From Streptomyces sp. HUAS CB01 (GTDB lineage Bacteria; Actinomycetota; Actinomycetes; Streptomycetales; Streptomycetaceae): a stretch of 19,799 bases of DNA. The translations under genes and the position numbers were made by a program. The stretch covers positions 1-19,799 of the forward strand of contig NZ_CP129138.1 of NCBI RefSeq assembly GCF_030406905.1, given 5' to 3'. Shown here piece by piece: positions 1-17,046 of this stretch (position 1 is its first letter; the number at the start of each line of letters is the position of its first letter). The notes under the pieces are model-generated. The model was not told the origin of the DNA, ran no database searches, and saw only the letters and a list, made by a program, of their open reading frames with translations.

Positions 1-198
1 GACCTCGCCTCGGTCGACACGGACGTTGATGCTTATGCGGGTCAGCTCGACAAGAGCGTCCCAGTCAGCGGCCAGCGAGTGCTCCTCCACCCTGCGGGCC
101 CTCAACACGAAAGCTTCCAACAAGCGCTGGTGCTTCTCGTCAAGAGTTTCCGTCAGCCCGCGGCTCACGCTTCCCCCCGGATCGATCGCTTCCAGCAT
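1..198 (-). CDS. Unrecognised protein, N-terminal 66 residues, runs off left edge
   Basis: An open frame starts with ATG at 198 and continues past base 1, so the C-terminus is missing. The start is well supported: GGAGAAGG lies at 205-212, six bases upstream. The visible residues (MLEAIDPGGSVSRG..., then a segment rich in E, R, L and A) look like a soluble, mainly helical protein, with no signal peptide or membrane segment. Third codon positions are GC-rich as expected for a real actinomycete gene. The start overlaps the end of the upstream zinc-ribbon frame by 59 bases, which suggests translational coupling in the ancestral operon. I do not recognise the family and assign no function. Confidence 0.6.
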   Translation of the reverse strand, partial: MLEAIDPGGSVSRGLTETLDEKHQRLLEAFVLRARRVEEHSLAADWDALVELTRISINVRVDRGEV

Positions 199-688
199 GA
201 CGTGCCTTCTCCGTCGTATCCATCCAATTCGCCGGGCTGGTCCTTGTCAGAAGGAGAAGCGCGGCTGGTCGGGAGGCGTGCCCCGGCTCAGCGGCGCAGG
301 CGCGAGAGCCAGCCGGTGCCGGCTGCTCGGGCACGGCCGGCTCCTGCTCCTGGTCGCGCTCCTCCTGCCGGTGACTCACACCCCAGGTCTGCTCCACGTC
401 GGACTCGAACCGCTGGTCGCAGTCGCCGCACAGAGACGGGCGCTTCGCTGGGGAGGGGCTCCAGCCGACGCGCGCGGTCGCCTTCCATCGTTCGTCGGTG
501 AACGCGGCACCGCACTCGGTGCAGACGGGGCGCTGGGGGGCGGGCCAGAAGTCGTCCGGCCCGGCCTCACCACGTGCCGGCTCCTGGCGCTCCTGCGTGC
601 CAGCCGCTGGGCTGACGACGGGGCCAGCCTTCTGCTTGCAGTCGTCGCACAAGTGCGGGTGGGAGTCCTTCGTGGCTCGCGCCCGAGG
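140..688 (-). pseudogene. Zinc-ribbon protein missing its 5' end
   Basis: The minus-strand frame shows three Cys-x2-Cys knuckles in succession: HLCDDCK, VCTECGAAF and LCGDCDQRFE. They are separated by Pro/Glu-rich linkers, and the C-terminal part is rich in E, Q, P and A. This looks like a small multi-zinc-ribbon protein, a class that often binds nucleic acid or mediates protein contacts; the role here is unknown. Codon use is GC3-rich up to about 680. Beyond that the same frame stays open only because it is antisense to a plus-strand coding fragment. No ATG, GTG or TTG lies in frame just upstream of the first knuckle, so the natural N-terminus appears lost. The stop lies inside the next gene's 5' end. 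A functional gene using a distant start is possible but unlikely. Confidence 0.5.
205..212 (-). promoter_or_regulatory. Ribosome binding site fixing the start at 198
   Basis: Reading the minus strand, GGAGAAGG is followed by a six-base spacer and ATG. This is close to the ideal complement of the 16S rRNA tail and decides the start of the gene that leaves the window on the left. Confidence 0.6.
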
Positions 689-1001
689 CGGAGCAGGTGC
701 CGGGACTGCTGCCGGCCATCGCGGAACTGGTCGTCTTTCCCGTGACCGCGCTGTCCGACGACACCGACCCCTGCGCCGACTCCTTCGTCCTGGACGAGGC
801 CGCCGTCCTCTACCTGATGGCGATCCGCGAGTGGGCCACGCACGCCCCCGCGCCGGGGATCGCCCGCACCCTCGCGCACTTCGTCGGCCAGGTCCTCGCC
901 GACGCCCCGACCGATGCCGTCGCACTCTGCAGGAGCTGCGCGACGAACAGGTGGCGCGGGCCCGCGCGGCGGTGGAGAACGTAGTGGCCCTGCACCGCTG
1001 A
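670..1001 (+). pseudogene. C-terminal fragment of an unknown protein, frameshifted
   Basis: From about 670 the plus strand has a coding-like frame (SWLAPEAEQVPGLLPAIAEL...), with GC3 bias and hydrophobic/acidic patterning, through to about 920. There the sensible frame jumps: the first frame degenerates into CRSCATNRWRG and stops at 984, while a neighbouring frame continues as LQELRDEQVARARAAVENVV and stops at 1001. The simplest reading is one gene with a single-base indel near 920-928. A GTG at 697 exists but has no convincing ribosome site, and the coding signal runs upstream of it. The 5' end is therefore probably lost at the 670-690 breakpoint. The protein would be soluble and helical. 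I do not recognise it. Confidence 0.4.
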
Positions 1002-1008
1002 CCGCACC

Positions 1009-1178
1009 ACCGCACCGAGTGGGAGCGCACCGGTGCGGTGGAGCGCACCCACCCGGTGCGCACCGGTCCGGTGGTGCGCACACCGAGTCCATCCGGTGCG
1101 CACCACGTCCATCCGGTGCGCGCACCGGTGCGGCCGGCGCGCGGGAGTGGCCGCACCGGGTGGACGCGGTGCGGTGAA
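1009..1178. repeat. Palindromic GGTGCGCACC array with ~20-bp spacing
   Basis: The stretch is built from variants of the self-complementary decamer GGTGCGCACC. Copies begin at 1055, 1073 (last base differs), 1095 and 1115 (two-base expanded centre). The related palindrome GCACCGGTGC occurs at about 1028 and 1124. Start-to-start intervals of 18, 22 and 20 bp put the copies on one face of the helix. Two of them share the longer unit GTCCATCCGGTGCG. The layout resembles an iteron or multi-operator site for a dimeric DNA-binding protein of a plasmid or integrated element, but no cognate protein is recognisable here. Chance from skewed composition is the alternative. Confidence 0.5.
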
Positions 1179-1210
1179 GTGGGCCCGGATGGAGACGGTG
1201 GAGGCGCTGT

Positions 1211-1246
1211 GTTTCTCCCTGACCTGAGCTCAGGTCAAGGAGAAAC
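1211..1246. repeat. 36-bp near-perfect palindrome flanked by a direct repeat
   Basis: The left arm GTTTCTCCCTGACCTGA and the right arm TCAGGTCAAGGAGAAAC are reverse complements with one mismatch around a central GC. The inner 16 bases (GACCTGAGCTCAGGTC) are fully self-complementary. The 13-mer CGCACCGGGTGGA occurs on both sides, at 1152-1164 and 1246-1258, and GGTGGAGGCGC also brackets it. There is no hairpin loop and no T-run, so it looks less like a terminator than like an operator, a recombination site or a fused pair of element ends. Confidence 0.6.
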
Positions 1247-1258
1247 GCACCGGGTGGA

Positions 1259-1456
1259 GGCGCGGCGCCACTCCCGTCGATGTCCTCTGTCCTGTATCAG
1301 CGAAGTTAGTCGACGGGGGGCTGCTGAGCTGCGAGGACTGGATTGAGTGAGACGGAGGCTCTCCGTCTGGCGAGCAAGGAGGCAAGGGGGCACCAGGTTA
1401 GACTCGAACCGGGGGAGTTGCGCCGTGCCCCTTGTCTCATGGCTCAGGACACGGCC
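1259..1456. other. Non-coding remnant between palindrome and IS1380 fragment
   Basis: I see no convincing gene here. The minus-strand transposase frame stays open through this stretch, but its translation no longer resembles the family. A short perfect hairpin (AGACGGAG, loop GCT, CTCCGTCT) lies at 1350-1368 and is not followed by a T-run. The stretch may contain the far end of the truncated IS1380 element or DNA from another insertion. Confidence 0.3.
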
Positions 1457-2175
1457 CAGGAACTCGTGGGTGCCGCCTGCGGAGTCGGTGCGGATCAGGG
1501 TGCGGCGGCCGCGCCGGTACTGCTTGGGCAACTGAGCCAAGGCCATCCTCGTCGTGGTGATGTGGTCGGCCGCGGTGTTGCTGCCTGCGTTGCCCGGCCG
1601 CAGCAGCCCCGCCACCGGCTCCCCTGACCCGGCCGACCCGTGGTCGAGGAACGCGACCAACGGCTGGTGTCCGAAGGTCCGCTTCCACGTCGCCGTGGCG
1701 TCCTGCTTCTCGGAGTGTGCCAGCACCAGAACCCCGTCGATGTCCACGATGACCTGGCCACCGGCGTCGGGGGCGTCGGTGGCGGCCAGCTTCCATACCC
1801 GCTCACGGGCTTCGGCCCTGGCATGGCGGATCGCGGTCAGCGCGCGTGAGCCAGCCGCAGCCAGGGTCTCGACCAGCCTGGAGACGGTGGGGTCGGAGGC
1901 CACCGTCCCGAACACCTGTGGCTCGGCCCGCAGCACCGCCACATCCGACAGGCAGTCCCCACCCATTGCCACCGCCGGGGCAAGGTCCAGCAGGACCTTG
2001 CCCGGGTCGTGCAACGTCCGCGACTTGCGCCACGGCGTCATCGCCGCCGACATCGCCGTGTCCAACCGGCCTTGCGGACGGTCTCCAGCAGTAGCACCCC
2101 ACCGGCTTGCGAGACCACCTCACCCCCACCGCCCTGGACACAGACAGGCGGATACGACCCGATACGCTTGTTCAC
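1457..2175 (-). pseudogene. IS1380-family transposase, frameshifted and 3'-truncated
   Basis: The product starts at GTG 2175 with VNKRIGSYPP and continues through a glycine-rich N-terminus to LLETVRKAG. Near 2066 the family pattern passes into another frame (LDTAMSAAMTPWRKSRTLHD), which implies a single-base deletion. The second part carries typical IS1380 landmarks: DPGKVLLDLA, GGDCLSDV, SDPTVSRLVE, the catalytic-strand motif GGQVIVDIDGVLVLAHSEKQ, ATWKRTFGHQPL, LLRPGNAGSNTA and RTDSAGGTHEF. After THEFL the sequence stops resembling a transposase. About 235 residues are visible where the family usually has about 450, so the C-terminal half with the last catalytic acid is absent. The gene cannot make an active enzyme. 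It lies just downstream of the relaxase remnant and may have cut into that gene's 3' end. Confidence 0.8.
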
Positions 2176-2249
2176 CTGGAGTGCTTCTTTCCTTGCATCT
2201 GACGGGACCTCGACAAGTTCCATCGTTGCAGTTCAGAAGCACTCTCCAC

Positions 2250-3080
2250 TTATCTGATCAAGACCCGGACAAACCCGCCGCAAGGGCGCGAGGTCAGCCG
2301 TTTTCCCGGCCCGGCAGGGGTGCGCCCTCCAGGAAGGCGTGATAGGTCGGCGAGGACGGCGCGCTCGTACTGGAGCGGGACGCGGGGGATCTCCCACTCC
2401 CCCGCGTCCTGGCCCGGGGGGCCGGGGTTCGGCCGCCTCGCCGGGATCGGCCGGGGGATGCCGGTCCGACTCGGGTGCGGGGGCCGGGGGGCGGCGGACA
2501 GGGACCACCGGGCGGTGTAGAGGCGGTAGCCGGCCTCCCGGCCGCAGACGGTCTTCGGCTCGCTGATGTCCAGGCAGTGGGTGGAGATGGCTGCGGCCAC
2601 GATCTCCTCGTCCAGGCCCGGGTCGCGTCGGCGGCCACGCAGGACGAGGGCGAGATGGCGGCGGGCTTCGGCGAGCAGGTGCCGGCGGTGGAAGCGGCCG
2701 CCCTCGTTCATCACGAACACCGTCGCGGTGACGTCGACGGCCGCCAGGGCGACGTCGACCACGGCCGCGACCCGGGCCCGAATCGCGGCGGCCGCGGCGC
2801 GGGCGTGCTCGAGGAGGGAGGTGATGACGTCGGCGGCGACCTTGGAGGTGAGGATCGCGCTCGCCTTCCACCAGACCCGCAGCTGCGCGAGCGGCCGGGT
2901 CTTCCGCTTGGGCGGGCGGGTCTTGCGGGCGGCCATGGCATTCAGCTTGGCGCGGGCCCGCTCGGAGACCACGGGCAGGAACCGTGGCTCGCCGTCGTCG
3001 TCGACGGCGGTCACGTACTCGTGCTCCAGCTCTGCCAGGCAGGCGGCGATCTGGTCGCTGCGCCGGGAGGTCCAGCGGAT
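2250..3080 (-). pseudogene. MobF/TraA-like conjugative relaxase, C-terminal remnant
   Basis: About 275 residues of a large protein remain, reading from the IS630 left end toward the left. Recognisable blocks are DQIAACLAELEHEYVTA, a basic linker, ARAAAAAIRARV, FHRRHLLAEARRHLALVLRG, DPGLDEEIVAAAI and EIPRVPLQYERAVLADLSRL. From memory these match the C-terminal tail of the long MobF-type relaxases (TraA/TrwC-like) of Streptomyces plasmids and integrative elements. In the intact family this tail follows relaxase and helicase domains, which are absent here. The frame stays open into the IS630 end, but those residues are encoded by the insertion sequence. Loss of the N-terminus at the IS630 border means no mobilisation activity. 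The family call is moderate because the diagnostic domains are missing. Confidence 0.55.
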
Positions 3081-3082
3081 TA

Positions 3083-3105
3083 CTGAGGTTGAACTCGTGG
3101 AGTCG
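3083..3105 (+). repeat. IS630 left terminal inverted repeat
   Basis: Twenty-one of 23 bases match the reverse complement of the right end. It is preceded by the target dinucleotide TA at 3081-3082. Confidence 0.9.
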
Positions 3106-3146
3106 TAGGGGCTGACGGCTCGTCGCCCGTGCGGTATCACCGGGGC

Positions 3147-3641
3147 ATGCGGTATCCACAAGGGGGCGGGTTGACCGCCGAACGTCAGCAGTTCCGCGAG
3201 GAGTTACGGCTCAAGGCGGCCGAGAGGTTCGCCCAGGGTGAAGCGAGCTCGGTGATCGCCAAGGACCTGCGGGTCAGCGTCCGCTCGGTGCAGCGATGGC
3301 GGCAGATGTGGGATGAGGGCGGTCCGCGGGCTCTGCGGTCACAGGGACCGGCGTCGCTGCCGAGACTGAGCGAGAAGCAGTTCGCCCAGCTGGAGACGGA
3401 GCTGGCCAAGGGGCCGGCCGCGCACGGCTGGGAAGACCAACGCTGGACCCTGAGCCGTGTGAAGACGGTGATCGGCCGGCGCTTCCACCTCACCTACACG
3501 GTCCAGGGCGTGCGCAAGCTGCTGGTGCGTAACGGCTGGTCGTGCCAGGTCCCGGCCCGACGCGCGATGGAGCGGGACGACGAGGCGGTGGCCGGGTGGG
3601 TCAAGGAGGTCTGGCCCTGCGCGGAAGACTCGCGGCGGTGA
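3147..3641 (+). CDS. IS630 transposase, N-terminal frame (HTH)
   Basis: I chose ATG 3147 because MRYPQGGGLTAE resembles the usual N-terminus of this transposase group; GTG 3129 in the same frame is possible. Residues about 28-55 (GEASSVIAKDLRVSVRSVQR) form a helix-turn-helix for binding the terminal repeats. It is followed by a second winged-helix segment with WTLSRVKTVIGRRF and VRKLLVRNGWS. The frame runs to EAVAGWVKEVWPCAEDS and stops at 3641 without any catalytic residue. The catalytic part continues in the -1 frame, so this is the first half of a split transposase. The overlap could be a programmed frameshift, as occurs in some insertion sequences, or a decayed gene; I see no A-rich slippery heptamer at the overlap. 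Confidence 0.8.
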   Translation: MRYPQGGGLTAERQQFREELRLKAAERFAQGEASSVIAKDLRVSVRSVQRWRQMWDEGGPRALRSQGPASLPRLSEKQFAQLETELAKGPAAHGWEDQRWTLSRVKTVIGRRFHLTYTVQGVRKLLVRNGWSCQVPARRAMERDDEAVAGWVKEVWPCAEDSRR

Positions 3642-4213
3642 GTGGAGCCTGGCTCGTCTTCGAGGACGAAGCCGGATTCTCCATGACGCCGCCGCAGGCG
3701 AAGACATGGTCACAGCGCGGCCGGACCCCGGTGGTGCGGGTCCGCGGCCGTTCCCGCAAACGGATATCCATCGCCGCGCTGACCTGCTACAAACCCGGCC
3801 ACCGGTCCCGACTGATCTACCGGCCACGCCGGGACGACGGCCGGCGCGACGGACGCAAAAGCTTCTCCTGGCGCGACTACCGGGACCTGCTGATCGCCGC
3901 ACACCAGCAACTCGGCGGCCCGATCGTGCTCATCTGGGACAACCTCAACGTCCACAAAGCCGCCGACCTGCGGGAGTTCGCCGCAGCCCGGGACTGGCTG
4001 ACCATCTACTACCTGCCGCCCTACGCACCCGACCTCAACCCCGTCGAAGGCATCTGGTCCCTCCTGCGACGCGGCTGGCTCTCCAACGTCGCCTTCAGCA
4101 CCCCCGAACACCTCATCCAGCGCATCCGACGCGGCCTACGCCACATCCAGTACCGCAGCGACCTCATAGACGGCTGCCTCGCCGAGACCGGCCTGACCAT
4201 CAAACCCACCTGA
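3542..4213 (+). CDS. IS630 transposase, catalytic frame (DDE)
   Basis: The informative part begins at about 3630 (GAWLVFEDEAGFSMTPP). It carries the three catalytic acids of the IS630 fold: the aspartate in LVFEDEAG, the aspartate in LIWDNLNVHKA and the glutamate in NPVEGIWSLLRR, with 35 residues between the last two. YYLPPYAPDLNPVEGIW is a signature of the family. The protein ends with LAETGLTIKPT ten bases before the right terminal repeat. The annotated GTG at 3542 is only the first start in the frame; the upstream translation is a shadow of the N-terminal frame. A working enzyme would need a -1 frameshift near 3615-3640. All catalytic residues are intact and the ends are intact, so recent activity is plausible. 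Confidence 0.8.
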   Translation: MPGPGPTRDGAGRRGGGRVGQGGLALRGRLAAVSGAWLVFEDEAGFSMTPPQAKTWSQRGRTPVVRVRGRSRKRISIAALTCYKPGHRSRLIYRPRRDDGRRDGRKSFSWRDYRDLLIAAHQQLGGPIVLIWDNLNVHKAADLREFAAARDWLTIYYLPPYAPDLNPVEGIWSLLRRGWLSNVAFSTPEHLIQRIRRGLRHIQYRSDLIDGCLAETGLTIKPT

Positions 4214-4222
4214 GCAACTCAG

Positions 4223-4245
4223 CGACATCACGAGTTCAACCTCAG
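4223..4245 (-). repeat. IS630 right terminal inverted repeat
   Basis: This is the inverted counterpart of 3083-3105 and is followed by TA at 4246-4247. It begins ten bases after the transposase stop. Confidence 0.9.
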
Positions 4246-4430
4246 TAACGCACCGCGTCGATCATCTGCCGGTGGCAGTAGCCCTCCGGACGGCCTCCCC
4301 GACCCGACAGCCATCCCGGCACCGGCAGCAGATCCCGCACCAATGCCCACTCCGCATCGCTCATGTCCGAGCCGTACCGGGGCCGGCGCTCCGGCCGGTC
4401 AGCCGCGTTCCCGAACCGATGGGCGAGACA
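4246..4430 (-). pseudogene. IS5-type (DUF4096) transposase, N-terminal stub
   Basis: Reading leftwards, the frame gives FGNAADRPERRPRYGSDMSD, then AEWALVRDLLPVPGWLSGRG, then YCHRQMIDAVRY. This is the recognisable N-terminus of the Streptomyces IS4/IS5-type transposases with a DUF4096 domain, which normally continue with a segment of the type LVDNGIKWRAMP. Here the frame ends at the IS630 right end at 4246, and the sequence beyond the IS630 left end is not the missing part. Only about 60 of the usual roughly 250-plus residues remain. ATG 4364 (MSDAEW) is the nearest start, but homologous residues lie upstream of it, so the natural start is earlier. The DDE catalytic domain is absent and the gene is inactive. 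Confidence 0.7.
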
Positions 4431-4579
4431 GTCACACCCAGGAGTGGACGGACTGGACCCGGCACGGAAAGAGAACGACCTCTCAGCCCCGTCGCCTTCC
4501 GCGCCGAAGCGAGGCGCGAAGCGGAGCCCGTCCACCGCGGCGAAGAAACCCACGGTTTCGCAGCCGGTATCGGCCGCGT
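4431..4579. other. Junction sequence between two transposase stubs
   Basis: I find no coherent reading frame between the IS5-type stub and the IS630-type stub. It presumably contains the terminal sequence of one or both dead elements, but I cannot identify inverted repeats. Confidence 0.3.
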
Positions 4580-4741
4580 TGGAACACCGATCCGAAGCCC
4601 TACGTCTGAACCAAGACCGCCGACGAGATCCTCGAACGCCTCGCCTCATATCTGAACACCCCTGTCAGGCTCCGCCTGACAGGGGATTCCATCTGCTGGA
4701 GAAATATGTCCTGGTGCCGTCAGCTCACGGCGTCTGAGTAG
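4580..4741 (+). pseudogene. Second IS630-type transposase, C-terminal remnant with internal stop
   Basis: The plus strand reads WNTDPKPYV, a TGA at 4607-4609, then TKTADEILERLASYLN. Intact transposases of one actinomycete IS630 group end with a pattern of the type WNtDPKPFVWTKTADEILERLA, so the TGA replaces a conserved tryptophan codon (TGG). The upstream sequence does not continue the family, so only the last 30 or so residues survive. This remnant differs in sequence and type from the intact element at 3083-4245. After LN the frame runs through a hairpin to a stop at 4739. It marks an older transposition event beside the immunity gene. Confidence 0.55.
4659..4685. terminator. Perfect 11-bp hairpin downstream of the immunity gene
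   Basis: CCCCTGTCAGG, loop CTCCG, CCTGACAGGGG forms an uninterrupted 11-bp stem without a T-run. It lies about 90 bases beyond the stop of the minus-strand immunity gene, where a terminator of the toxin operon would be expected; actinomycete terminators often lack the U-tract. It also sits at the decayed end of an IS630-type gene, so it could instead belong to that element. Confidence 0.5.
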
Positions 4742-4775
4742 ACCAGCCGTGCTACCGGGCTCGGTGGGACGCAGC

Positions 4776-5333
4776 CTATCGAAGGCTGTCCCAATCGATT
4801 TCCGGATCCTCGACCATCTCGACCACGGAGGGCCGGTCGAGGCGCTGCCCGTTCATATGACCGGCAACCCAATGGATGCACTCAGGTCGATTCCCCGAAC
4901 GCAGTCGACAAAATTCCTCCACCGCAGCCTGAATTCGGGAAACCGGCAAAGTACTGGCCGAGTCATGGAAGAGCGGATAGCCAGGATCCGACACAACGCG
5001 TGGATCGAAATCAGGAGGTTCGGGATTGTCGGAAATCCAAACAGAATCATAAACCCCTCCCTCTTTAGAGAATTTCTCATCAACGAACCACACTAGAGCC
5101 CCATACCCATGACGTCGATTGATCGCCACGCGCAGGTTGCTCCCCGCCACCGGTTCGGTTTCGCTATGCCGTCTTTCAGCAATGCAGAACCAGGCATCTT
5201 CCCCGGGAAAGTAGAAGCCTCCGACCTCCTCTTCCCCCTGCAAGCCCTCCATGACTTCGACGACAAGCCGTGACGTCTCGACCGGACTCTCGGAGTAGCG
5301 CCACTCACCCTTGAAAAATACGCTCAGAAACAC
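4776..5333 (-). CDS. Imm1-family immunity protein for the adjacent RHS toxin
   Basis: The 185-aa product is acidic and cytoplasmic (no signal peptide) and carries blocks typical of Imm1 (PF14430): GEWRYSESPVE near the N-terminus, then AWFCIAERRH, HGYGALVWFVDE, VYDSVWISDNPEPPDFDPRV, LPVSRIQAAVEEFCR and CIHWVAGHMNGQRLD. Imm1 proteins are encoded next to polymorphic toxins, notably those with deaminase tips, and bind the toxin to protect the producer and its kin. The start is GTG 5333, 18 bp after the toxin stop, with GAGGGG just upstream, so it is probably cotranscribed and translated with the toxin. Base composition is unusually low: 58 of 120 bases at 4981-5100 are G or C, against 75 of 120 at 9001-9120 in the RHS gene. 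A small hairpin (CAGCCT/AGGCTG) spans the stop codon. Confidence 0.85.
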   Translation of the reverse strand: MFLSVFFKGEWRYSESPVETSRLVVEVMEGLQGEEEVGGFYFPGEDAWFCIAERRHSETEPVAGSNLRVAINRRHGYGALVWFVDEKFSKEGGVYDSVWISDNPEPPDFDPRVVSDPGYPLFHDSASTLPVSRIQAAVEEFCRLRSGNRPECIHWVAGHMNGQRLDRPSVVEMVEDPEIDWDSLR

Positions 5334-5351
5334 GACCCCTCACTTTCCTGA

Positions 5352-8300
5352 TCATCCCCGCGCCCGGCCATGGAGCGTGACGTTCTGCATGCTACCCGCT
5401 GCACCTCTGAACCAGACTGTCATACTCGAACCTTGGGGAAGGATCGCCGGAACCGCTGACGAGCACGAGAACCTTCCCGTACACGGTCCGCCAGAATGGT
5501 TGATCACGACATCTAGCGACTTTACGCCGGCCTGTCGCATACGCCAAGCAAGCTTCGTCTCCACGTGAGTGATTGACGCATGGGGCCCACTCGCCGGATT
5601 CGCTATGTCCGGTGAATCCATGAGGAACTGGTTGATGTCATCCGAAGAGGAAGAGTGGCCGCTCTTGAACGGAACCCCCACCCTAGACGCGCCCGAGTCG
5701 CCGATATTCACGACCTGCCCCACCGTGGGGTCACCACTTGCACGCGCCGGAAGCCCGTCAGCAATCCCACCGACGTTGCAGTTATGAACGAGGACCGGCG
5801 TGGCCCCGGCCAGTACATAGTACGTGTGAACGTCTTGGATGGTGAGGTCATGCGTACGCTGGCGCTTGGTGAAATGGCCGACTGCGCTGATCTGGACATG
5901 TGTGCCAGCGCTGGTCCGCAGCCACTGACCGGCATGAAGGTCGCCTGCCGGGACCCACTCTCGTGTATCGGGTACCCAGAAGGGGTGGGTGTCGGTGGCC
6001 ACGATGCTGGAGTATCTGCCGTCTACGACCACCGTGATTTCAGTGAAATCCTTGTCGTCCTCCGTGGTGATCGTCTCGACGACCTTCTTCTCGACAGTTT
6101 CCCCTGTCTCAGTATCCGTCGCCACGACCGTGTCGCCGACCTGGATGTCCTCGATGGCCTTCTCTGTGCCATCCGCAAGTAGCACCCCGGTCCCTGGCAG
6201 GAAGCTGTGGCAGAAAGATGCTGCCGTAGTGCCCGTGACGGCGTCGGACACCTCGTCAATGACCTTTCCGGCGAGCTTCCACTTCGCCGCAAGCAGTGCA
6301 TCTTTGCCTAGGTCGACACACGCCAAGAGGTCCCCGCTCCTGCAGGCGGCGTAAGACTCCAGTCCCAGAAATTCCTTGGCCCTCTGCATGAGCCAGTCGA
6401 TGCCATCAGGGACCGGAGATCCTGTCTTTACGTTCCGGAACGCCTCATCCACATTGGGCCCGTAGCCCGATACCCCCACAGCGCCACTGCAACCGATGTA
6501 GCCGCACTGATAGTCCTTGGGACTAGGGCCTATGCCCGTACTATCCGCAGTTGCCGTTCCATTTACACCGCCACCGCCGCCATTGTTGATCTTGTCGGGT
6601 TGGCCGCTCTGGCCGCCGCTCGGGTTGGTGGGGCAGCCGTCCTGGTTCGGACCGCTACCGCAACCCAGGCCCAGGCCTGACGGGTCGGAGAAAGTAGCGG
6701 GGTTCTGGGCGCCGTAACTGTAGCCGCTGAGCGTTTGGTGCTTGTCGAGTTCCAGCAGGAGGTCGACGCTGATGAACTGGCCGATGGTGGGGTCGTACTC
6801 GCGGGCGCCGATGTGAGTCAGGCCAGTCGTGCTGTCTGCAGGCTTGCCGAGGAAGGCCTTGTCGTCCGGCCACGACGTCGGTGCTGACCCACGGGATGCG
6901 CCGAAGGGAGTGGTGTAGCGCTTGGTGACTGCCATGGTGGTGGCGTCGAGGACGAGGCTTGATGTGCCGTGGTGGTCGCCGGCGAGGAAGCTGAGCTTGC
7001 TGCCGGTGACACCCGCTGTGGCAGTGCGCAGGGCGATGGTCTGGCCGGCGGCGGTGTAGTAGCGGGTGCCGGTCAGGGTCTTGGTGGTGCCCTTGGTGGT
7101 GAGGCGCACCTCGGTACCGCCGAGGTAGAGGACGGTGTCGCCGTCGGCAGTGGTGTTGCGGCGGATGAGGAGTTCGCCGGCGGCGTCGTAGAGGTAGCTG
7201 GTGCCGGTGGCGGGCTTTCCGCCTGCGGCAGGCTCGGACGTGCCGACGAGTTTGCCTTCGGTGTTCCAGGTCAGGGTCTGCTGGGCCTGGGCGCCGGGAC
7301 GGCTGGTGGTGTTGCCTGCCGTGTCGTAGCCGTAGGTGCCGGCCCTGGCGCCGGTGGTGGAGGCCAGAGGGTGGGGCTGGTTGTTGGGTGTGCCGTAGGT
7401 GTAGTCGGTGGTCTTGTCGCCTGCCGTGGTGTGCTGGGTTTCCAGGTCGCGCTGGCCGGAGCTTGTGTAGGTGTAGCTGGTCCAGTAGGGGGCTGCGCCG
7501 TCGAGGTTGGCGACGGTGCGTCCGCTGGTGTCACAGCTGGCGGCCTTCGGGGTCCATGCGTGGCTGAGTCGGCGATGGGTGTCGTAGGTGAAGCACTGGT
7601 AGTCGGCCTTCGAGGTGCCGCCTTGGGTGGTGGCGTCGAAGATCGAGGTGACGTTGCCGGCCTTGTCCTGGGTGTACTTCAGCTCCTGCGGCATGTAGCC
7701 GTGGACCGTGTCAGTGACGTAGGAGCGGGTGAGGCGGCGGGTGCCTTGCTCGTAGTCGAAGCTGAGGTAGGCCTTGGCGTCTGTGCTGTTCCTGCCCAGG
7801 GTGAGCTGGCGTACGTCCCCGGTCTCGGAGTACAGGGCTTCCTGCAGGTACTGGCTGGTGCCCTGGGCCGTGAGCTGCTGGCCGGTGGCGCTGTAGGTGT
7901 TGGAGACGATCTCTGAGGGCAGGCCGGCGACGGCGGGGCTGGACGACTGTCGGACCGTGCCGTCGGGGTTGTAGACGGTGGAGAAGGACAGCGTCTGCGG
8001 GACACCGGCGGCGATGAGCGGGTCGCCGGTGGGCAGGATCAGCTGGCTGCCGGTGACCTGGTAGAGCGGGTCGTAGGTGGTGACCTTCTGGGTGTAGGCC
8101 TTGCTGTTGGTCTGGCCGAGGCCGTTCTCGTAGCGGACGGCCGTGTCCTGCTGGCCCTTTTGGAGAACGTCGAAGGTCCATGCGGCGAGTTTGGTGGCGT
8201 CGGTCTTGGTGCCGTTCCAGAGGCCGGTCTTGCGGCCGAGGATGTCGTACTCGGAGATGAGTTTGTTGCCGGGGCGCGAGTCGCTGGAGCTGACGGGCTG

Positions 8301-11300
8301 GTCGAGGTCGTTGTACTCCGTGGTGGAGGTGCCCTTGTCCGGGTCCTTCGCGGTGACCTGGCGGCCGAAGAGGTCGTAGGTGTAGCTCCACGTGGCCTTG
8401 TCGGGGCCTTCGACAGCCTTCTGCTGGCCTGCCGGTGTGTAGGTGTAGTCAGTGGTGGTGTAGTTGCTGCCGGTCGGTTCGGTGCTGCCGTATTCGCGGC
8501 GCTGGGTCACCTGACCGAGGGCGTTGCTGGTCACGGCCGCGGCTTGGCCGCCGGACGGTGCTGAGGTGGCGACGGTGTCGCCGGTGTAGGTGGTGTTGAT
8601 GGTCCACAGGGGGACGTTCTTGGTCTTCGTCTCCGCCTTGACGGCGCGGGCGGCGCCGTCGTAGGTGGTGTCGGCCTGCATCGGGGCCTGGCCGCCGTCG
8701 GTGGCCACGAGGCTTCCCGAGGGGGCACTGGTCTGGTCCCAGATGTCGGACAGTGCTGATTCGGCGAGGCCGCGCTCGTCGTAGAGGGCCTCGGAGATCA
8801 GCCGGCCGCCGATCGGCGAGGGGGACTGTGTCTGACGCGGCCGCAGGAGGGAGTCGTAGATCTCGTAGGTGGTGTTGTATCCGCTCGCGTCGCCCTTGAG
8901 CGTTCCGGTGGAGACCCAGGAGGGGTCGGAGGCGGTGACGCTGTAGGCGTAGACGTAGTTCGGGGTCTTGCCCAGGGACTTGGAGCGGTTGGGCAGCCAG
9001 ACCTTGGTGACGCGTCCGAGGCTGTCGTATTCGCTCTGGGTGACCTTGTTGTTGGGGTCGGTCACCTTGGTCGGGGCGCCGGTGGCGAAGTCGACGAGTG
9101 TGGTGGTGATGTGGCTCTTGGCGTTCTCGGCCGTGGTGCTGGTCAGTGGGCCGGTGGCCGTGGGGGTGTAGGTGCTCTTCGCGGTGAGGGTGTCGTTGGT
9201 GTCCTTGACTTCCAGCGGGCGGCCGAGGACGTCGTAGGTGGTGGTGGCGACCTTCTGCCACACGGGGTTGTTCGCGGCGGTGTAGCTCTTCGCGCGACCG
9301 ATCCACTGTGCCTCGCCCTTGGTCGGGGTCTGGGTGGAGGACCAGGTGGTGGAGTCGTAGGCGGTGGCGGTGTCGGAGATGACGTCGCCCGGGCGGGTGG
9401 AGTCGGCGGGCAGGTCGAGTGCGTCGCCGGTGATGGCGCAGGGCTTGGCGGTGACGCGAGTGCGGGAGACGAGGCTGTTGATGCCGAGGCTGTCGTTGCG
9501 GGCGTACCAGGTGCGGGAGCACTTCTCGTCGCCACTGATGGCGTTGTCGCCCTTGTCCTCGACGGTCGAGGCCATGCCGTAGGCGTCGTAGGTGGTCGCC
9601 ACGGTGCGGACCCGGTCGATGGGGGTGCCGCTGGTGGTGATGTTCGTGCGGGCGTGGCTGGCGCCGGTGCGGACGAAGTAGGCCTCGGTGTCGGCGTAGG
9701 ACTTGTGCTGGGTGGCGGTGCGCTGGGACCAGGGGTCGTAGACGGCGCCGGTGACTTCCTGGGCGCCGTTGTAGGTGACCGTTTCGCGGGTGAAGCCGGC
9801 GTACTGGTCGGCATCCGTGATCGCGGGTGCCTTGATGCCGGTGACCGTAGCGGTCTTGCGGGTGTCCGGGTGCGGGGTCTTGCCGTCGCTGCCCAGGACA
9901 CGGTCACCGTTCATGCCCTGCAGGTAGACGGTGACGGTCTTGGACTGTGTCAGGCCCGTGCGGCCGGTGAGGTGGGTGACCTTCTCGAAGCCGCGCCAGA
10001 CGGACCAGGTGCGTTCCTTCTCCTTGACCAGCGGGTCCTCGTTGTAGTGCCAAGCCGCGCCGGAGTAGGTGTAGGTGTGCTCGACGGACTCGGAACCGCC
10101 CTCGGGGTCGCTGGTGGACACGGTCCAGACGGGGTACTTGTGGAACCAGTCGAGGATCGGGTCCTTCTCACCGTTCGGGGACCAGTACACCGGGTAGCAG
10201 CGTCGGGTGTTGGTGTCGACCTTGGGCATGGTCTGCCCGGCCACGCAGTCCGCGGCCATGTAGGTGACGATCGTCTCGGCGCCGGTCTCCGAGGTGATGG
10301 TGCGCAGGCGCGGCCTCTCCAGGGAGAGGATGTCGTCGGTGGCGCCGTCGACCCGGTTGGGGCGGAACTCGTGGCTGAACTTCACCGGGTCCAGGCTGAG
10401 GTCGGTGCCTCGCTTGCCGGTGTGGCGGATTTCGGAGAGCCACAGGGACTGGTCGGTGGAGTCGCCGGTGTCACCGGGGTCGAGATACTGCTGCGTGAGT
10501 GCCCAGGAGTCCACTGACTCGTAGACGGGGGTGGCAGCGGCGGCGTTCCATGCCTGGGTGGAGATGCCGGTCATCCGCTTGCGCGTGTAGAAGCTGGGGC
10601 CGGTGTTGCCGGTGCACTTCTGGTCGGCCTTGCATTCGGCGTCGAAGGGCACGTCGGGCCAGTTGTCGCGGGTGGCATCGGTGAGTGAGCCGCAGTCGCC
10701 GATGATGCAGCGCTCGGCGTAGCCGAAGACGACCTTGTTCGACGCGGCGGGAGTGCCGGTGAAGAGGGCGCCGGCGCGCTGACCGTAGCGGATCTCGTTC
10801 AGGTAGCCGCCGCGGGTGTAGGCGGTGCCGTTGTTGTCGTCTCCGAGCATGTCGTAGTGGTTGGTCTCGGCGTTGTACCAGTACGACATGGCGTTGCTGT
10901 GAGTGTCCTCGACGTAGTCCAGGTTCCACCGCCAGGCCTGCTTCTTGTGCCGGTCGGCGAAGGCGGAGCCGTCCGCGTAGCCGGGTTCGCCCGCGTCGTC
11001 GCCGAAGACGGGCACGGTCCACACCGAGTTCGTGCGGTCCGATGCGCCGGCACCGTCCAGCTTGTTGAGGCCGAAGACGTACTTGGTGCCGTCGCCGGTG
11101 ACGACGGTCCAGTGCTCCCCGTTGTCGTCACCGTTGTCGGCTCCGGTGGCGACGGTGACGGTGGAGGCGTCGTCGTTCTTCAGGCGCCACTTGCCCGAGG
11201 TGTCGTCCTTGACGAGTTCGGTGGCCTTGCCGTTGAGGACCAGGGAGGCGTTGTCGTACTTCCAGCACAGGTCGAACTTGTCGGTCTGGCCGTCGTCGTC

Positions 11301-12359
11301 GCAGGAGCCGTACTTGCGCTCGATGTAGGAGGAGGTGATGTCGAAGCCCTCGCCGATCACCGTGCTCTGGTTGTTCGTGGACGCCGTGCGGCCGTCCACA
11401 CTCCCGGAGTCATAGGCAATCTTCAAGTCAGGCTTCGGACCGGCTGCAGAGGGTGGAACACGCAGCGGGTAGGACCAGGTGAAGGTGCCCGACGAGCCTC
11501 CCGCCTCCCACGAGGAGGAGGACGCGAGCGGGGTGGCCTTGTAGTCGCCGCCGCCGGACTTGGTACCCGCGGCGAGCGCGAGGACCATCGTCTGCCCGGT
11601 GGAACGCGGCGCGGCGAAGCGAGCCGCGGACCCCGAGGAGGAGGCGGCGGTGAACGTCAGCTGGGTGCTGAGGTTCTGCTTCTTACGATGGTTGGTGAAT
11701 TCGAGCGGGGTCCGGGCACGGCACTTCGCCGAGGTGGGTGCTGTCAGGGCGCAGTCGGGCAGGCGCAGCACCTGAAGGCGGCCGGCCCAGTCACCGCCGT
11801 ACGCGGAAGCGAAGGCCGCGTAGTTGATGCCGAGGTCGGCCTGTCCCCCGGCAGCGGGACCAGTGACGGTCAGAACGACGCCCTTGACCCCGAGTACGGT
11901 CGCCCGCTGCTGGTCCAGGACGTTCACGGTCACGGCACCCGCACGCTGCGGTGCCTTCTTGCCCTTGTCGGGCTTGGGCGGAGCAATGGTCACGGGCAGT
12001 GCGCCCGGGGCCGCCTGTGCCGTGCCGATGGCGGGGACGGTCAGGGTCGCGGTGCCCGTCTTCGGCCAGGTGACCTTGCGGTTCTGGTCGGCCTTGGCTC
12101 GTGCCGTATCCACGCGCCGGGCAGCCGCGGCCTCGGCCCTCACAGCTTTGGCTTTCTTGCTCACCTTCGGGGTGAAGGGAGACACATCCGCAGACTGCGG
12201 CTTACTGAGCTTCGGCTTGCCGAGCGGATCGACTTCAGCCGCGAAGGCCACCGGGGCCAGGAGCCCAGGTATCAAGGACAGCGCGGCAACCGTGCCCAGA
12301 GACCGCGTGGGCCAGCTGCGGCGGCCGCTCTTGCCGGCCACCGGTAGAAACCGGTTCAT
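5352..12359 (-). CDS. Secreted RHS/YD-repeat toxin with Hint and DddA-like deaminase tip
   Basis: This 2335-aa protein begins at ATG 12359 with a signal peptide: basic SGRRSWPTR, a hydrophobic core, and likely cleavage after AFA at about residue 40. A lysine/alanine-rich region follows, then a SpvB/TcdB-like segment (about 300-340, PDLKIAYDSGSVDGRTAS) and many YD repeats (about 1050-1780, for example TYDVLGRPLEVKD and SEYDSLGRVTKVW) that build the RHS shell. The RHS core spans about 1785-1895 and closes with NPATFSDPSG. A Hint autoprotease spans 2050-2193: initial CHSFLPGTG, internal ATDTHPFW, terminal VLVHN before Cys2194. The tip (2194-2335) has the deaminase pattern THVETKLAWRMRQAG (H2265, E2267), then GGPCTGRFSC (C2293, C2299) and AILPQGSSMTVW. 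This matches DddA/SCP1.201-like cytidine deaminases. Export followed by Hint cleavage would free the tip to mutate DNA in rival cells. Substrate is inferred. Confidence 0.85.
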   Translation of the reverse strand: MNRFLPVAGKSGRRSWPTRSLGTVAALSLIPGLLAPVAFAAEVDPLGKPKLSKPQSADVSPFTPKVSKKAKAVRAEAAAARRVDTARAKADQNRKVTWPKTGTATLTVPAIGTAQAAPGALPVTIAPPKPDKGKKAPQRAGAVTVNVLDQQRATVLGVKGVVLTVTGPAAGGQADLGINYAAFASAYGGDWAGRLQVLRLPDCALTAPTSAKCRARTPLEFTNHRKKQNLSTQLTFTAASSSGSAARFAAPRSTGQTMVLALAAGTKSGGGDYKATPLASSSSWEAGGSSGTFTWSYPLRVPPSAAGPKPDLKIAYDSGSVDGRTASTNNQSTVIGEGFDITSSYIERKYGSCDDDGQTDKFDLCWKYDNASLVLNGKATELVKDDTSGKWRLKNDDASTVTVATGADNGDDNGEHWTVVTGDGTKYVFGLNKLDGAGASDRTNSVWTVPVFGDDAGEPGYADGSAFADRHKKQAWRWNLDYVEDTHSNAMSYWYNAETNHYDMLGDDNNGTAYTRGGYLNEIRYGQRAGALFTGTPAASNKVVFGYAERCIIGDCGSLTDATRDNWPDVPFDAECKADQKCTGNTGPSFYTRKRMTGISTQAWNAAAATPVYESVDSWALTQQYLDPGDTGDSTDQSLWLSEIRHTGKRGTDLSLDPVKFSHEFRPNRVDGATDDILSLERPRLRTITSETGAETIVTYMAADCVAGQTMPKVDTNTRRCYPVYWSPNGEKDPILDWFHKYPVWTVSTSDPEGGSESVEHTYTYSGAAWHYNEDPLVKEKERTWSVWRGFEKVTHLTGRTGLTQSKTVTVYLQGMNGDRVLGSDGKTPHPDTRKTATVTGIKAPAITDADQYAGFTRETVTYNGAQEVTGAVYDPWSQRTATQHKSYADTEAYFVRTGASHARTNITTSGTPIDRVRTVATTYDAYGMASTVEDKGDNAISGDEKCSRTWYARNDSLGINSLVSRTRVTAKPCAITGDALDLPADSTRPGDVISDTATAYDSTTWSSTQTPTKGEAQWIGRAKSYTAANNPVWQKVATTTYDVLGRPLEVKDTNDTLTAKSTYTPTATGPLTSTTAENAKSHITTTLVDFATGAPTKVTDPNNKVTQSEYDSLGRVTKVWLPNRSKSLGKTPNYVYAYSVTASDPSWVSTGTLKGDASGYNTTYEIYDSLLRPRQTQSPSPIGGRLISEALYDERGLAESALSDIWDQTSAPSGSLVATDGGQAPMQADTTYDGAARAVKAETKTKNVPLWTINTTYTGDTVATSAPSGGQAAAVTSNALGQVTQRREYGSTEPTGSNYTTTDYTYTPAGQQKAVEGPDKATWSYTYDLFGRQVTAKDPDKGTSTTEYNDLDQPVSSSDSRPGNKLISEYDILGRKTGLWNGTKTDATKLAAWTFDVLQKGQQDTAVRYENGLGQTNSKAYTQKVTTYDPLYQVTGSQLILPTGDPLIAAGVPQTLSFSTVYNPDGTVRQSSSPAVAGLPSEIVSNTYSATGQQLTAQGTSQYLQEALYSETGDVRQLTLGRNSTDAKAYLSFDYEQGTRRLTRSYVTDTVHGYMPQELKYTQDKAGNVTSIFDATTQGGTSKADYQCFTYDTHRRLSHAWTPKAASCDTSGRTVANLDGAAPYWTSYTYTSSGQRDLETQHTTAGDKTTDYTYGTPNNQPHPLASTTGARAGTYGYDTAGNTTSRPGAQAQQTLTWNTEGKLVGTSEPAAGGKPATGTSYLYDAAGELLIRRNTTADGDTVLYLGGTEVRLTTKGTTKTLTGTRYYTAAGQTIALRTATAGVTGSKLSFLAGDHHGTSSLVLDATTMAVTKRYTTPFGASRGSAPTSWPDDKAFLGKPADSTTGLTHIGAREYDPTIGQFISVDLLLELDKHQTLSGYSYGAQNPATFSDPSGLGLGCGSGPNQDGCPTNPSGGQSGQPDKINNGGGGGVNGTATADSTGIGPSPKDYQCGYIGCSGAVGVSGYGPNVDEAFRNVKTGSPVPDGIDWLMQRAKEFLGLESYAACRSGDLLACVDLGKDALLAAKWKLAGKVIDEVSDAVTGTTAASFCHSFLPGTGVLLADGTEKAIEDIQVGDTVVATDTETGETVEKKVVETITTEDDKDFTEITVVVDGRYSSIVATDTHPFWVPDTREWVPAGDLHAGQWLRTSAGTHVQISAVGHFTKRQRTHDLTIQDVHTYYVLAGATPVLVHNCNVGGIADGLPARASGDPTVGQVVNIGDSGASRVGVPFKSGHSSSSDDINQFLMDSPDIANPASGPHASITHVETKLAWRMRQAGVKSLDVVINHSGGPCTGRFSCSSAVPAILPQGSSMTVWFRGAAGSMQNVTLHGRARG

Positions 12360-12383
12360 TGTGATTCATCCGTTTTCACTGAG

Positions 12384-12400
12384 GCCGCCCTACAGGCGGC
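12384..12400. other. Small intergenic hairpin between LamG and RHS genes
   Basis: GCCGCC, loop CTACA, GGCGGC forms a perfect 6-bp stem immediately after the larger hairpin in the direction of transcription. It may add to attenuation upstream of the RHS start. Confidence 0.35.
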
Positions 12401-12413
12401 ATGCGCTGTGGTG

Positions 12414-12440
12414 CCCCCGCGGTCACGAGGACCGCGGGGG
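12414..12440 (-). terminator. Perfect 11-bp GC hairpin between LamG and RHS genes
   Basis: CCCCCGCGGTC, loop ACGAG, GACCGCGGGGG gives a very stable stem in the 143-bp gap between the stop of the LamG gene (12503) and the start of the RHS gene (12359). There is no T-run. It could terminate most LamG transcripts, protect the 3' end, or set the ratio between the two products. No obvious separate promoter for the RHS gene is visible in the gap. Confidence 0.55.
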
Positions 12441-12502
12441 AGATGGCTCAAGAGGGGGCTTCTGGCGGCACCCGTGGATGCCGCCGGCAGGGACGGAGTC
12501 AC

Positions 12503-15500
12503 CTACTCGGCACTCGGATCGCCCATGATCTTGGTGTCGACCTCATTGGCGTGCATGGCGCCTGCCCAGACACGCACTTCCTGCAGTGCGCCGGGCAGGT
12601 AGTTGCCGTTCACCCCGGCAGAAGGTCCACGGCCGGCGGCAATCGCTCCGCGTCCCTGCTGTGCGGTGGTAAAGGCCGGGGTTTCGCCCGGCGGCTGGTC
12701 GACTGCGCCGACAAACAGGTGCGTGTTGCCGTAGCCGGCACCGATCTGCTCGGTGGCGTCGAAGACGCCCGTGACCTGCACCCAGGTGTTCATGTCGGCG
12801 GGGAACTCGGAGGGAACCGAGCTGCGGGCGACCACATTGCCAGTCCCGTCCGTCGCAGTGCGGCCAAAGCGCCACAGATAGCCCTCATCGACCTTCTCCA
12901 CCCACAGGGCCCACGAGGACTCCTTACCGTCCGGCGTGGCCTGCCCGAAGACGTGCGCCTTCGCGCCGACGGGCATGGCGGCGAACTTCGTCCCGTCCAG
13001 TCGGACGCTGGCCGTCACGGTGAACGAACCCGTCTCGTCCACCACCGGACCGGCAGCTGCCAGGTGCCCGGAGACGCCATCCAGCCTCAGCTCGCCCTGT
13101 GCCGGGTCCGCTGCGGCTCCAGTCGCCGAGATCGCCATGTCCGGGGCGTACGGGCCGGGGGAGTCGATCTTGCCGCTGGCCGCGCTCGCAGCGTCCCAGT
13201 AGCCGACCAGCTCGGTCGCCGGCATGCCGACGGCGTTGTCGAGTCGGTGCTCCGTGCGAACGTCGTCGCCGGTCAGCTGCCTCTGCCACACGGCGAACTC
13301 GTCGATGCTGCCCTTGAAGTACTCGCCTGCCTTGGACCCGCCCACTCTCATGCCGGCCGAGGACGTCCACGGTGCATAGGCGGGATTGGCCGCTGCCAGA
13401 TTGACCGGCGTGCCCTGTGCGCGGCCGTTGACGAAGAGCTGGATAGTGTCGTTGCTCTTGTCCGCGTCGTCCTTGGCGTCAAAGACGCCTGTCAGATGCG
13501 TCCATACGTTCAGCGGCGGATTCGGCGTATCGGCCAGGGCGCTGACATAGGCAGGTGTTGCCGCATCAGCGATCGCCCGGTTGAACACCCACTTCTTCGC
13601 CGAGGCGGAGTAGAACAGGTTGAACGCGGCTGACGTGCTGGTTCCCGGGGCGGACGCCACCACCCGGGTCTTGGCCCCGTCCGTCAACAGAACCCATGCG
13701 GAGACGGTAAACGAGTCCTTCGTGTTGATCGGAGGCTCAGCTGTCGATGCGTAGCCGACCTGCTTGGCCGGATCGGCCACGTCCTCGTTCAGACTCAGCG
13801 AGGAGTCGCCGGTGCCGCGGCGACCGCGTTCCGACCAGGTCGCCGCCGTTCCTCCGGCCTGCTGGTGCAGGGTGAGTTCATGCCGCGTGGCGCCTTCGGT
13901 AGCCGTGTCGCCCGCCTTGTTGCCGGTCGCTTCGGCGAAGTGCCAGCGACCCACCGCAGGCGTGCCCGCCTTGACCTTGAAGTGGAACTCCGCAGCCACT
14001 CCCTCGCGGCCGTTGGTGTCCTTGGCCTCCACGATCAGCACCTGCACGCCGGCTGTCGTGGGCACCGGCTTGATGGTCATGCTTCCATCGGCTCCGAGAT
14101 TCTGCTCAAGGTGCGTGTCCTCGGCATCTTCTGTCAGCAGTCGCCACCGGTAGCTCGTGATGTCGTTGTCCGCGGCATTGGGCTTGATCGTGAAGGAACC
14201 CTCGAGCCCTGGCTTGCCCTTCGGATCACAAAGGTCCGTGGTGCACTCGGTGTAGGGCCCGTTAGTGGTGATCTGCGGTTCCTTGGGAGCCGTTGCATCG
14301 ATCTTGAAGTAGCACCAGCGCTTGTAACCGGAGGAGATCGCCGTCGTGACACCCTCGTACGTCCAGAACGTCTGCACCAGCGATCTCACCCGGTACAGGG
14401 CCCCGTCGACTCCATTGGCCAGGCGCTGCCTGGCAAATGCGTCGTCCACGAGGTAACCGGTGGACGGCACGTTGAACTGAACAGGCGGATCGGCGGTCCA
14501 AGTACCGCCGGGCAGCTTCCGCTCGACCCAGTAGTGCACCCGCAGCGAACCGCGCTCCTCATCATTCGCAGGCTGCACAGCGGTCTGCGCGCGCGCCTGC
14601 AGCATCGGGTCGGATCGTGTGGCGATGATGGGGGTGGCGTCCGAGGTCGAGCAGCGCTCAACGGTTCCGTTGCCCGGGATGACACCGTCATTGGACACTA
14701 GGCCGGGCTTGATGACGTAGACGACCTTGAGTTCGGCGTTCTCCTTGAACCGCTTCCACGCGTCCGCGTTGCCCTCGTCCTTCGCCCGCAACATGAGGGT
14801 GAGGCGCGAGAAGTTGCCGTCGGCGAAGGTGCGGACCGTCTTGGTGAGGTTCTCGTCCGTCTCACTGGCGCTGTCGTTGAACTCGATCCACTTGTCGGGC
14901 TGCTCCGGTGAGCAGTGGTCACCACGGCCTGCAGAGACTTGCCGGTCCCCCATCAGATCCAGTTGCGTCGGTCCGGGCCAACGAGTCGCACTCGAAATGT
15001 TGTTCGTGCGCCAGAGGTCCACCCAGTGCGCAGAGCAGGAAAACGACCACGTCTCATATGCGCGGAAAGTCGCATCGATCACGTACTTGCCGACCAGCTT
15101 GCTCGGCGAGAACTCGAAGTACATCCGGTTGGTGTGGTCGGCGTCGCAGTAGTACGGCCCGACCCGGTAGCAGCGGCCGACGCCCAAGTCGCCGCTGAAG
15201 TCGTAGAAGGTGTCACCGTCCGAGGACAACACTGTCCGCTCCGAGACACCGAGGCCCATAGACGGGTCGATGTAGACGGGGTACACCGTGCCCTCGCCGC
15301 GCAGCACGTCCAAGTCCGGCTTGACGGCGATCTCGCCGTCGCTGACGTGCACCGGAAGGACCGCGCTGACATCGCCCTTGTCCGGCGCCGCCGCCTCGGA
15401 GGCCTCGCTCGCAGCGGGTTCGCCCGTGTTCGCAGAGGAGGTGTTGCGCATCAGCTGGGTCCGGGCACCGGTCTCGTCGGCGTCGCCGGCCGAATCCCAC

Positions 15501-16210
15501 ATCAGGCCGGCCGGGCCCTTGAAGACCGTGTTGCCGTCCTCGTCGATGGCCCGCAGGCCGCCGCCGGCCCCGGGGGCGACGGTGAGCCCGTCGCCCCGTG
15601 CGGTGAGGGCCACCTCGTTGAGCTCGGGGTTGGCCGCCGCCTCGGCGGTCTTGACGACCAGTACCTCGCGATAGCCCTCGGCAGTCGCCGTCAGCTGCAG
15701 GTCGACACCTTTGAAGACTTCCGGGTAGGTGGCTGTGGGCCCCTCGAGCATCGGCTGCGGCAACTGATCGGGCCAGCCCAGGGTCACCGACCCCTGAGGC
15801 GCGGCCAGACGGATCATGTCCTTGCCGGTACCGTCGCCGGAGAACGAGAGGTCGACCACGGCCGCCTTCGGGCCCACGGTCCCGTCCGGGCGGCGCTCAA
15901 GGGTCACATCCACATCACGCCATGAACCGTCATCAGCCTTGACCCGCTGAGGAGTCGTCGACTGCGTCAACGTGAACGTGCCGTCCGGATTCGCCTCAGT
16001 CCTGGTGTACTCGGAACGCTCCGAGACCACCTCCACGGGCTCACCCGTCTCAGCCGCCAGCGCCGACGCACTCTGCGCCGACATCGGCGCTGCCGCTGGT
16101 TGCTGCGCTGAAGCCTGACCGGCCAACGGCTGAAGCACCGAGGCCATGATCGCTGCGGCAGTGACCGCCACGGTTCTGCGGCGCCCCCGACGCCACACCC
16201 AACCCCTCAC
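12503..16210 (-). CDS. Secreted LamG-domain protein paired with the RHS toxin
   Basis: The 1235-aa product starts at GTG 16210, preceded by GGGGTGGG, with a clear signal peptide: WRRGRRR, a hydrophobic core and likely cleavage after ASA at residue 35. A beta-rich N-terminal half contains YTRTEANPDGTFTLTQSTTP, which resembles an RHS-partner leader, and the motif GTVYPVYIDPSMG. An Ig/fibronectin-like segment follows at about 637-746 (DATAPKEPQITTNG...). Two LamG/concanavalin-like domains lie at about 837-980 (SFTVSAWV...NVWTHLTGVFD...GSIDEFAVWQR) and 1057-1225 (SFTVTASV...NTWVQVTGVFD...QEVRVWAG). LamG folds bind sugars or proteins. Such genes often precede giant RHS genes in Streptomyces, so an accessory role in surface display, target binding or delivery is likely but unproven. 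There is no catalytic motif and no LPXTG-type or membrane anchor at the C-terminus. Confidence 0.8.
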   Translation of the reverse strand: MRGWVWRRGRRRTVAVTAAAIMASVLQPLAGQASAQQPAAAPMSAQSASALAAETGEPVEVVSERSEYTRTEANPDGTFTLTQSTTPQRVKADDGSWRDVDVTLERRPDGTVGPKAAVVDLSFSGDGTGKDMIRLAAPQGSVTLGWPDQLPQPMLEGPTATYPEVFKGVDLQLTATAEGYREVLVVKTAEAAANPELNEVALTARGDGLTVAPGAGGGLRAIDEDGNTVFKGPAGLMWDSAGDADETGARTQLMRNTSSANTGEPAASEASEAAAPDKGDVSAVLPVHVSDGEIAVKPDLDVLRGEGTVYPVYIDPSMGLGVSERTVLSSDGDTFYDFSGDLGVGRCYRVGPYYCDADHTNRMYFEFSPSKLVGKYVIDATFRAYETWSFSCSAHWVDLWRTNNISSATRWPGPTQLDLMGDRQVSAGRGDHCSPEQPDKWIEFNDSASETDENLTKTVRTFADGNFSRLTLMLRAKDEGNADAWKRFKENAELKVVYVIKPGLVSNDGVIPGNGTVERCSTSDATPIIATRSDPMLQARAQTAVQPANDEERGSLRVHYWVERKLPGGTWTADPPVQFNVPSTGYLVDDAFARQRLANGVDGALYRVRSLVQTFWTYEGVTTAISSGYKRWCYFKIDATAPKEPQITTNGPYTECTTDLCDPKGKPGLEGSFTIKPNAADNDITSYRWRLLTEDAEDTHLEQNLGADGSMTIKPVPTTAGVQVLIVEAKDTNGREGVAAEFHFKVKAGTPAVGRWHFAEATGNKAGDTATEGATRHELTLHQQAGGTAATWSERGRRGTGDSSLSLNEDVADPAKQVGYASTAEPPINTKDSFTVSAWVLLTDGAKTRVVASAPGTSTSAAFNLFYSASAKKWVFNRAIADAATPAYVSALADTPNPPLNVWTHLTGVFDAKDDADKSNDTIQLFVNGRAQGTPVNLAAANPAYAPWTSSAGMRVGGSKAGEYFKGSIDEFAVWQRQLTGDDVRTEHRLDNAVGMPATELVGYWDAASAASGKIDSPGPYAPDMAISATGAAADPAQGELRLDGVSGHLAAAGPVVDETGSFTVTASVRLDGTKFAAMPVGAKAHVFGQATPDGKESSWALWVEKVDEGYLWRFGRTATDGTGNVVARSSVPSEFPADMNTWVQVTGVFDATEQIGAGYGNTHLFVGAVDQPPGETPAFTTAQQGRGAIAAGRGPSAGVNGNYLPGALQEVRVWAGAMHANEVDTKIMGDPSAE

Positions 16211-16225
16211 AAACCCACCCCAGGT

Positions 16226-16254
16226 CTTACATGATCCTTACATAGACCGACCAA
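16226..16254 (-). promoter_or_regulatory. Possible promoter of the toxin operon
   Basis: On the minus strand TTGGTC (16249-16254) and TGTAAG (16226-16231) are separated by 17 bases, just upstream of the GTG at 16210. The -10 match is poor and the untranslated leader would be very short, so this is only a candidate. The surrounding 16225-16350 is more AT-rich than the rest of the region, as is common for promoters. Confidence 0.25.
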
Positions 16255-16808: not shown

Positions 16809-17046
16809 GTGCCGGAAGTGGGAGTGGTATCTGCCGAGATCCTGGAGGAGGGCAGGGACCACTGCGAGGCGGTGAAGATGCCCGACGACCGCGACTTCGC
16901 GGCCAAGGGCGACCTCGCCAAAGCCGGGATCCAGCGGCTCCTGGCGTCTCCACTGCCCATCACCGGGGAAACTGTGGACTCGGTTTATGGTCAGGAATGG
17001 CGGCTGCGTCGCATGCTGGAGGAAGCTGGCGTAGATTACAGCGGCC
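16809..17046 (+). pseudogene. IS701-type transposase, internal fragment
   Basis: The frame contains DHCEAVKMPDDRDFAAKGDL, AKAGIQRLLASPLPI and VDSVYGQEWRLRRMLEEAG. From memory these match the central part of IS701-family DDE transposases, where a block of the type DRDRCxxAKIPDDRxFATKP is followed by a catalytic strand ending in aDSVYGqe and then gYVLAVPK. The expected AVPK appears here only after a one-base frame change near 17040 (VDY, then AAVPK), and what follows does not match the family. Both ends are missing and the expected residues before VDSVYG are disturbed. It is an inactive fragment. Confidence 0.5.

Follow-up and report, generated by a model that had tools for sequence, protein, structure and literature searches.

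The C-terminal tip of a large RHS polymorphic toxin of Streptomyces sp. HUAS CB01 belongs to the DddA (PF14428) family and very probably acts as a zinc-dependent deaminase of cytosine in DNA. The toxin gene lies on the reverse strand of the 19,799-nucleotide stretch analyzed here (contig NZ_CP129138.1, positions 1 to 19,799; hereafter, the window), and beside it stands an Imm1-type immunity gene. Tip and immunity gene together form a probable interbacterial DNA cytosine deaminase system, well supported but unremarkable within a toxin family that is already known.

The tip comprises residues 2194-2335 (5355..5780, reverse strand). A profile search with this segment alone matched PF14428 at an E value of 7.8e-20 and 71.6 bits against a curated cutoff of 25, which puts membership in the family far beyond chance. 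HVETK, CTGRFSC, and ILPQG start at residues 2265, 2293, and 2306 of the toxin, respectively. The HVE motif (5559..5567, reverse strand) contributes His2265, a predicted zinc ligand, and Glu2267, the predicted catalytic residue; the zinc loop CTGRFSC (5463..5483, reverse strand) contributes the predicted zinc ligands Cys2293 and Cys2299 and a possible wedge, Phe2297. In a 15-row alignment (A1), the glutamate and both cysteines are invariant, and the histidine is kept in 13 rows and replaced by aspartate in two. The structure model of the tip has a predicted local distance difference test score of 93.3, and all ten PDB chains matched by Foldseek at E ≤ 0.001 are DddA or TOD4/TOD6 entries. Model and placed residues together present the predicted deaminase fold, the HxE motif, and the two zinc cysteines that characterize PF14428. 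An initial annotation of this DNA had proposed, from motifs, a DddA-like deaminase at the tip of an RHS toxin, and two of the checks that it had suggested, a PF14428 search of residues 2194-2335 and a comparison of a predicted structure with DddA, bear this out; its placement of the four key residues, with five residues between the two cysteines, was also correct.

Compared with the tips of four other loci (L008, L011, L012, and L031), the tip differs most at third codon positions (71-92 differences), ahead of first (34-55) and second (26-46) positions. When the PDB was searched with the single sequence, UmbC1 of Streptomyces coelicolor matched the tip (E, 1.7e-11) and DddA fell short of significance (E, 0.23); a profile search with the tip recovered DddA at an E value of 1.1e-13. 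Two observations weigh against this assignment. The overall template-modeling scores of the tip model to DddA reach just 0.49-0.57 of the query. In one published screen, in which CxxC homologues alone were tested, 7 of 28 were active on double-stranded DNA (dsDNA), and in the other 21 dsDNA editing did not exceed 1% (PMC10587121; this and the other papers are cited from the portions available), so that membership in PF14428 is no guarantee of activity. That result, together with a fold common to nucleoside deaminases as well, is what favors the improbable alternative that the tip is inactive on DNA, being either a dead copy or an enzyme for RNA or free nucleosides.

The whole toxin gene (5352..12359, reverse strand; stop codon, 5352-5354) encodes 2,335 amino acids and has the parts expected of an RHS polymorphic toxin: RHS repeats (PF05593) and an Rhs core (TIGR03696, residues 1817-1896), a pretoxin HINT domain, and an exchangeable C-terminal tip. 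Judged by eye, the N terminus has the appearance of a Sec signal. The HINT domain (residues 2062-2193; 5781..6176, reverse strand) scores 65.8 bits against PF07591 (cutoff, 27.7), and its end, ...VLVHN, abuts Cys2194, so that the PF07591 boundary is the exact start of the tip.

The tip is a mobile cassette that has been swapped between largely unrelated chassis. Relative P0003 shares 96% identity with it in the tip, 56% in the HINT domain, and 64-65% in three RHS segments. With P0004, the tip is still 91% identical, the HINT domain is 35% identical, and the segments before it align just in pieces of 36-76 residues. This near identity on a largely unrelated chassis is the basis for regarding the tip as mobile, together with a third-position GC content (0.67) that deviates from that of the RHS core (0.91 over the first 1,900 codons); the corresponding values are 0.75 for the HINT domain and 0.60 for the Imm1 gene. 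PF14428 and PF14430 each match once in the genome that holds the window, and the pretoxin HINT profile matches five times.

Eighteen bases past the toxin stop begins the Imm1 gene (4776..5333, reverse strand), whose 185-amino-acid product matches PF14430 with 36.7 bits against a cutoff of 22.4. Its structure model, compared by VIA-align, has a predicted fold like that of DddI, the antidote of DddA. Sequence searches found no relationship between DddI and the Imm1 protein, and DddI was absent among the 50 Foldseek matches listed for the model; the likeness surfaced with VIA-align alone. By analogy, the Imm1 protein is a putative binder and neutralizer of the adjoining toxin. These features suggest a model in which the RHS toxin is exported with its shell carrying the tip, HINT cleavage would free the tip, and, inside a rival cell, the tip would convert cytosine to uracil in DNA, leading to repair breaks and C-to-T mutations. 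The producer would be shielded by the Imm1 protein, which may plug the active-site cleft in the manner of DddI on DddA.

Three known systems bear comparison. UmbC1 (PDB 8w20), the top hit when the PDB was searched with the tip sequence, likewise has a HINT domain before the tip, a long zinc loop, and an Imm1 antidote, UmbD1 (PMC11062931); it differs in its stalk, an ALF-repeat umbrella in place of the RHS shell, and in its loop, which the alignment shows to be C-x10-C where the window tip has C-x5-C. UmbC1 caused C-G to T-A mutations in Escherichia coli and coprecipitated with its own Imm1 protein, and no test on single-stranded DNA (ssDNA) or dsDNA appears in the available portion of that paper (PMC11062931). 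DddA of Burkholderia cenocepacia, with DddI (PDB 6u08, 8e5d, and 8e5e), has a CxxC loop with Phe1375 and differs from the window tip in its longer tail with SPKK-related motifs and in its type VI delivery. The pairing of SCP1.201 (PF14428) deaminases with Imm1 has been tabulated for Actinobacteria (PMC3482391), with no essential difference from the window pair in the portion available.

The initial annotation had also singled out the C-x5-C spacing, which a census of Streptomyces loci did not bear out as unusual. Profile searches gave 37 PF14428 matches, spread over 29 of the 392 Streptomyces genomes sampled, and 30 loci were kept for the spacing count (partial or broken census rows: L013, L014, L016, L019, L020, L027, and L029). 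The x5 class was the commonest (14 loci), followed by x2, that is, CxxC (10), x8 (3), and x10 (3). Since HVE with CxxC occurs in just 64 of 531 family members (Sun et al., PMC10587121), and nearly half of the Streptomyces loci are x5, the spacing is ordinary for the family, and we rejected the notion of an unusual loop. A further set, P0002-P0011, is entirely x5, but its members, among them the window itself (P0002), were recruited by likeness to the window tip. In a sample of the phylum, PF14428 occurred in 2 of 396 genomes, one being the window's own; among plasmid records there were 11 matches, all from Streptomyces and each below 60% identity, and phage records gave no match at an E value of 1e-5. 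Two tips with broken frames, L033 (2758-3174) of Wenjunlia vitaminophila and L034 (4001-4402) of Spongiactinospora rosea, lie beside open Imm1-like genes, reflecting either decay of the toxin with retention of the antidote or sequencing error.

Loop class and antidote may be linked. By profile, the next gene was Imm1-like at 20 of 23 x5 loci, 3 of 3 x10 loci, 0 of 2 x8 loci, and 0 of 8 CxxC loci, counts in which the near-copies L008/L037/L038 and L011/L032 are each entered separately and from which L006, L023, and L024 were dropped for want of an open reading frame of at least 100 amino acids, so that shorter antidotes would escape. Pfam at E 0.01 put Imm1 at 24 of 36 loci, one above the profile count, without specifying the locus of the extra match. 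The Streptomyces tips of the CxxC type, at 10 loci (L017, L019, L021-L026, L028, and L029), account for the class with no Imm1-like next gene among the eight with an open reading frame. In a tree of 44 rows (excluding L019, L027, L034, L035, P0001, P0002, and one piece of L013), the loop classes cluster, and nine CxxC rows make up one side of an unstarred branch at 86/84. Because the branches concerned are few and weakly placed, with long ones meeting at the CxxC split, we keep the tie between loop class and antidote family as a lead. A bolder and rather tentative proposal is that the C-x5-C, Imm1-paired RHS tips of actinobacteria form a separate functional class, in which the longer loop would shift or abolish the wedge (Phe2297), strand and sequence preference would be altered, and loop type and antidote would have coevolved.

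The double-strand specificity put forward in the initial annotation did not hold up as worded: many PF14428 enzymes act on ssDNA, and those acting on dsDNA make up a smaller subbranch (PMC10847098), and the tip has neither CxxC nor an SPKK-type tail, the two features associated with dsDNA activity in published screens (PMC10587121 and PMC9935910). A preference for ssDNA has about an even chance of being correct; one for dsDNA appears somewhat less than even. The Sdd single-strand deaminases belong to the same Pfam family as the window tip (PMC10847098), and the available portions of the literature held no mention of long zinc loops in them. According to the same commentary, 45 of 76 other family members tested gave a base-editor reporter signal, and many act on ssDNA and not on dsDNA (PMC10847098). 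The name "DddA-like double-stranded DNA deaminase toxin," which NCBI gives to some relatives, reflects the family and not strand preference. That a different loop may change sequence preference, as the initial annotation supposed, is reasonable by analogy, because the base-displacing Phe1375 of DddA sits in the zinc loop.

A special case of the deaminase assignment is that the tip, like DddA, deaminates strictly double-stranded DNA, using Phe2297 in its longer loop as the base-displacing wedge. We find this possible and somewhat doubtful. The tip model is nearest in predicted fold to DddA and the DNA-bound TOD4/TOD6 entries, the antidote model is DddI-like, and at 13 of the 14 x5 Streptomyces loci the residue that stands two places ahead of the second cysteine is F, Y, W, H, L, or V. 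However, Phe1375, whose role is to displace the base on the 5' side of the target (PMC10442228), directly precedes the second zinc cysteine of DddA (numbering from the alignment), and that site in the tip is Ser2298, Phe2297 standing one place earlier. The tip model also ends at the equivalent of DddA residue 1418, short of the DNA-backbone contact Lys1420, and the final residues of the tip translation show no SPKK-related motif; all four homologues with such motifs were active on dsDNA, whereas the four without them showed little or no activity (PMC9935910). The tip has the HVE but not the CxxC of the filter used in the dsDNA screen (PMC10587121); this filter was the choice of its authors, and other loops could still work.

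Further genes of the window flank the toxin and its antidote. Downstream of Imm1 lie an IS1380-like transposase match (1235-2065, reverse strand), an IS630-like transposase in two overlapping frames (3129-3641 and 3542-4213, forward strand), and an IS4/5-like transposase fragment (4242-4649, reverse strand); across this region (1235-4649), the NCBIfam and DUF4096 scores were under their cutoffs. Upstream, a large gene on the same strand as the toxin (12503-16210) has a LamG domain (PF13385; E, 2.4e-31).

CRISPR-free mitochondrial base editors have been built on relatives of DddA. In the available portions of the literature, we found no settled rule for ssDNA versus dsDNA action and sequence context among family members, and the published dsDNA screen, restricted to HVE and CxxC homologues, set the C-x5-C class aside (PMC10587121). 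Because C-x5-C loops are frequent among the sampled Streptomyces loci and were left out of that screen, an intact tip with its antidote makes a usable test case. Biologically, the window adds one more probable interbacterial mutagenic toxin from a soil bacterium.
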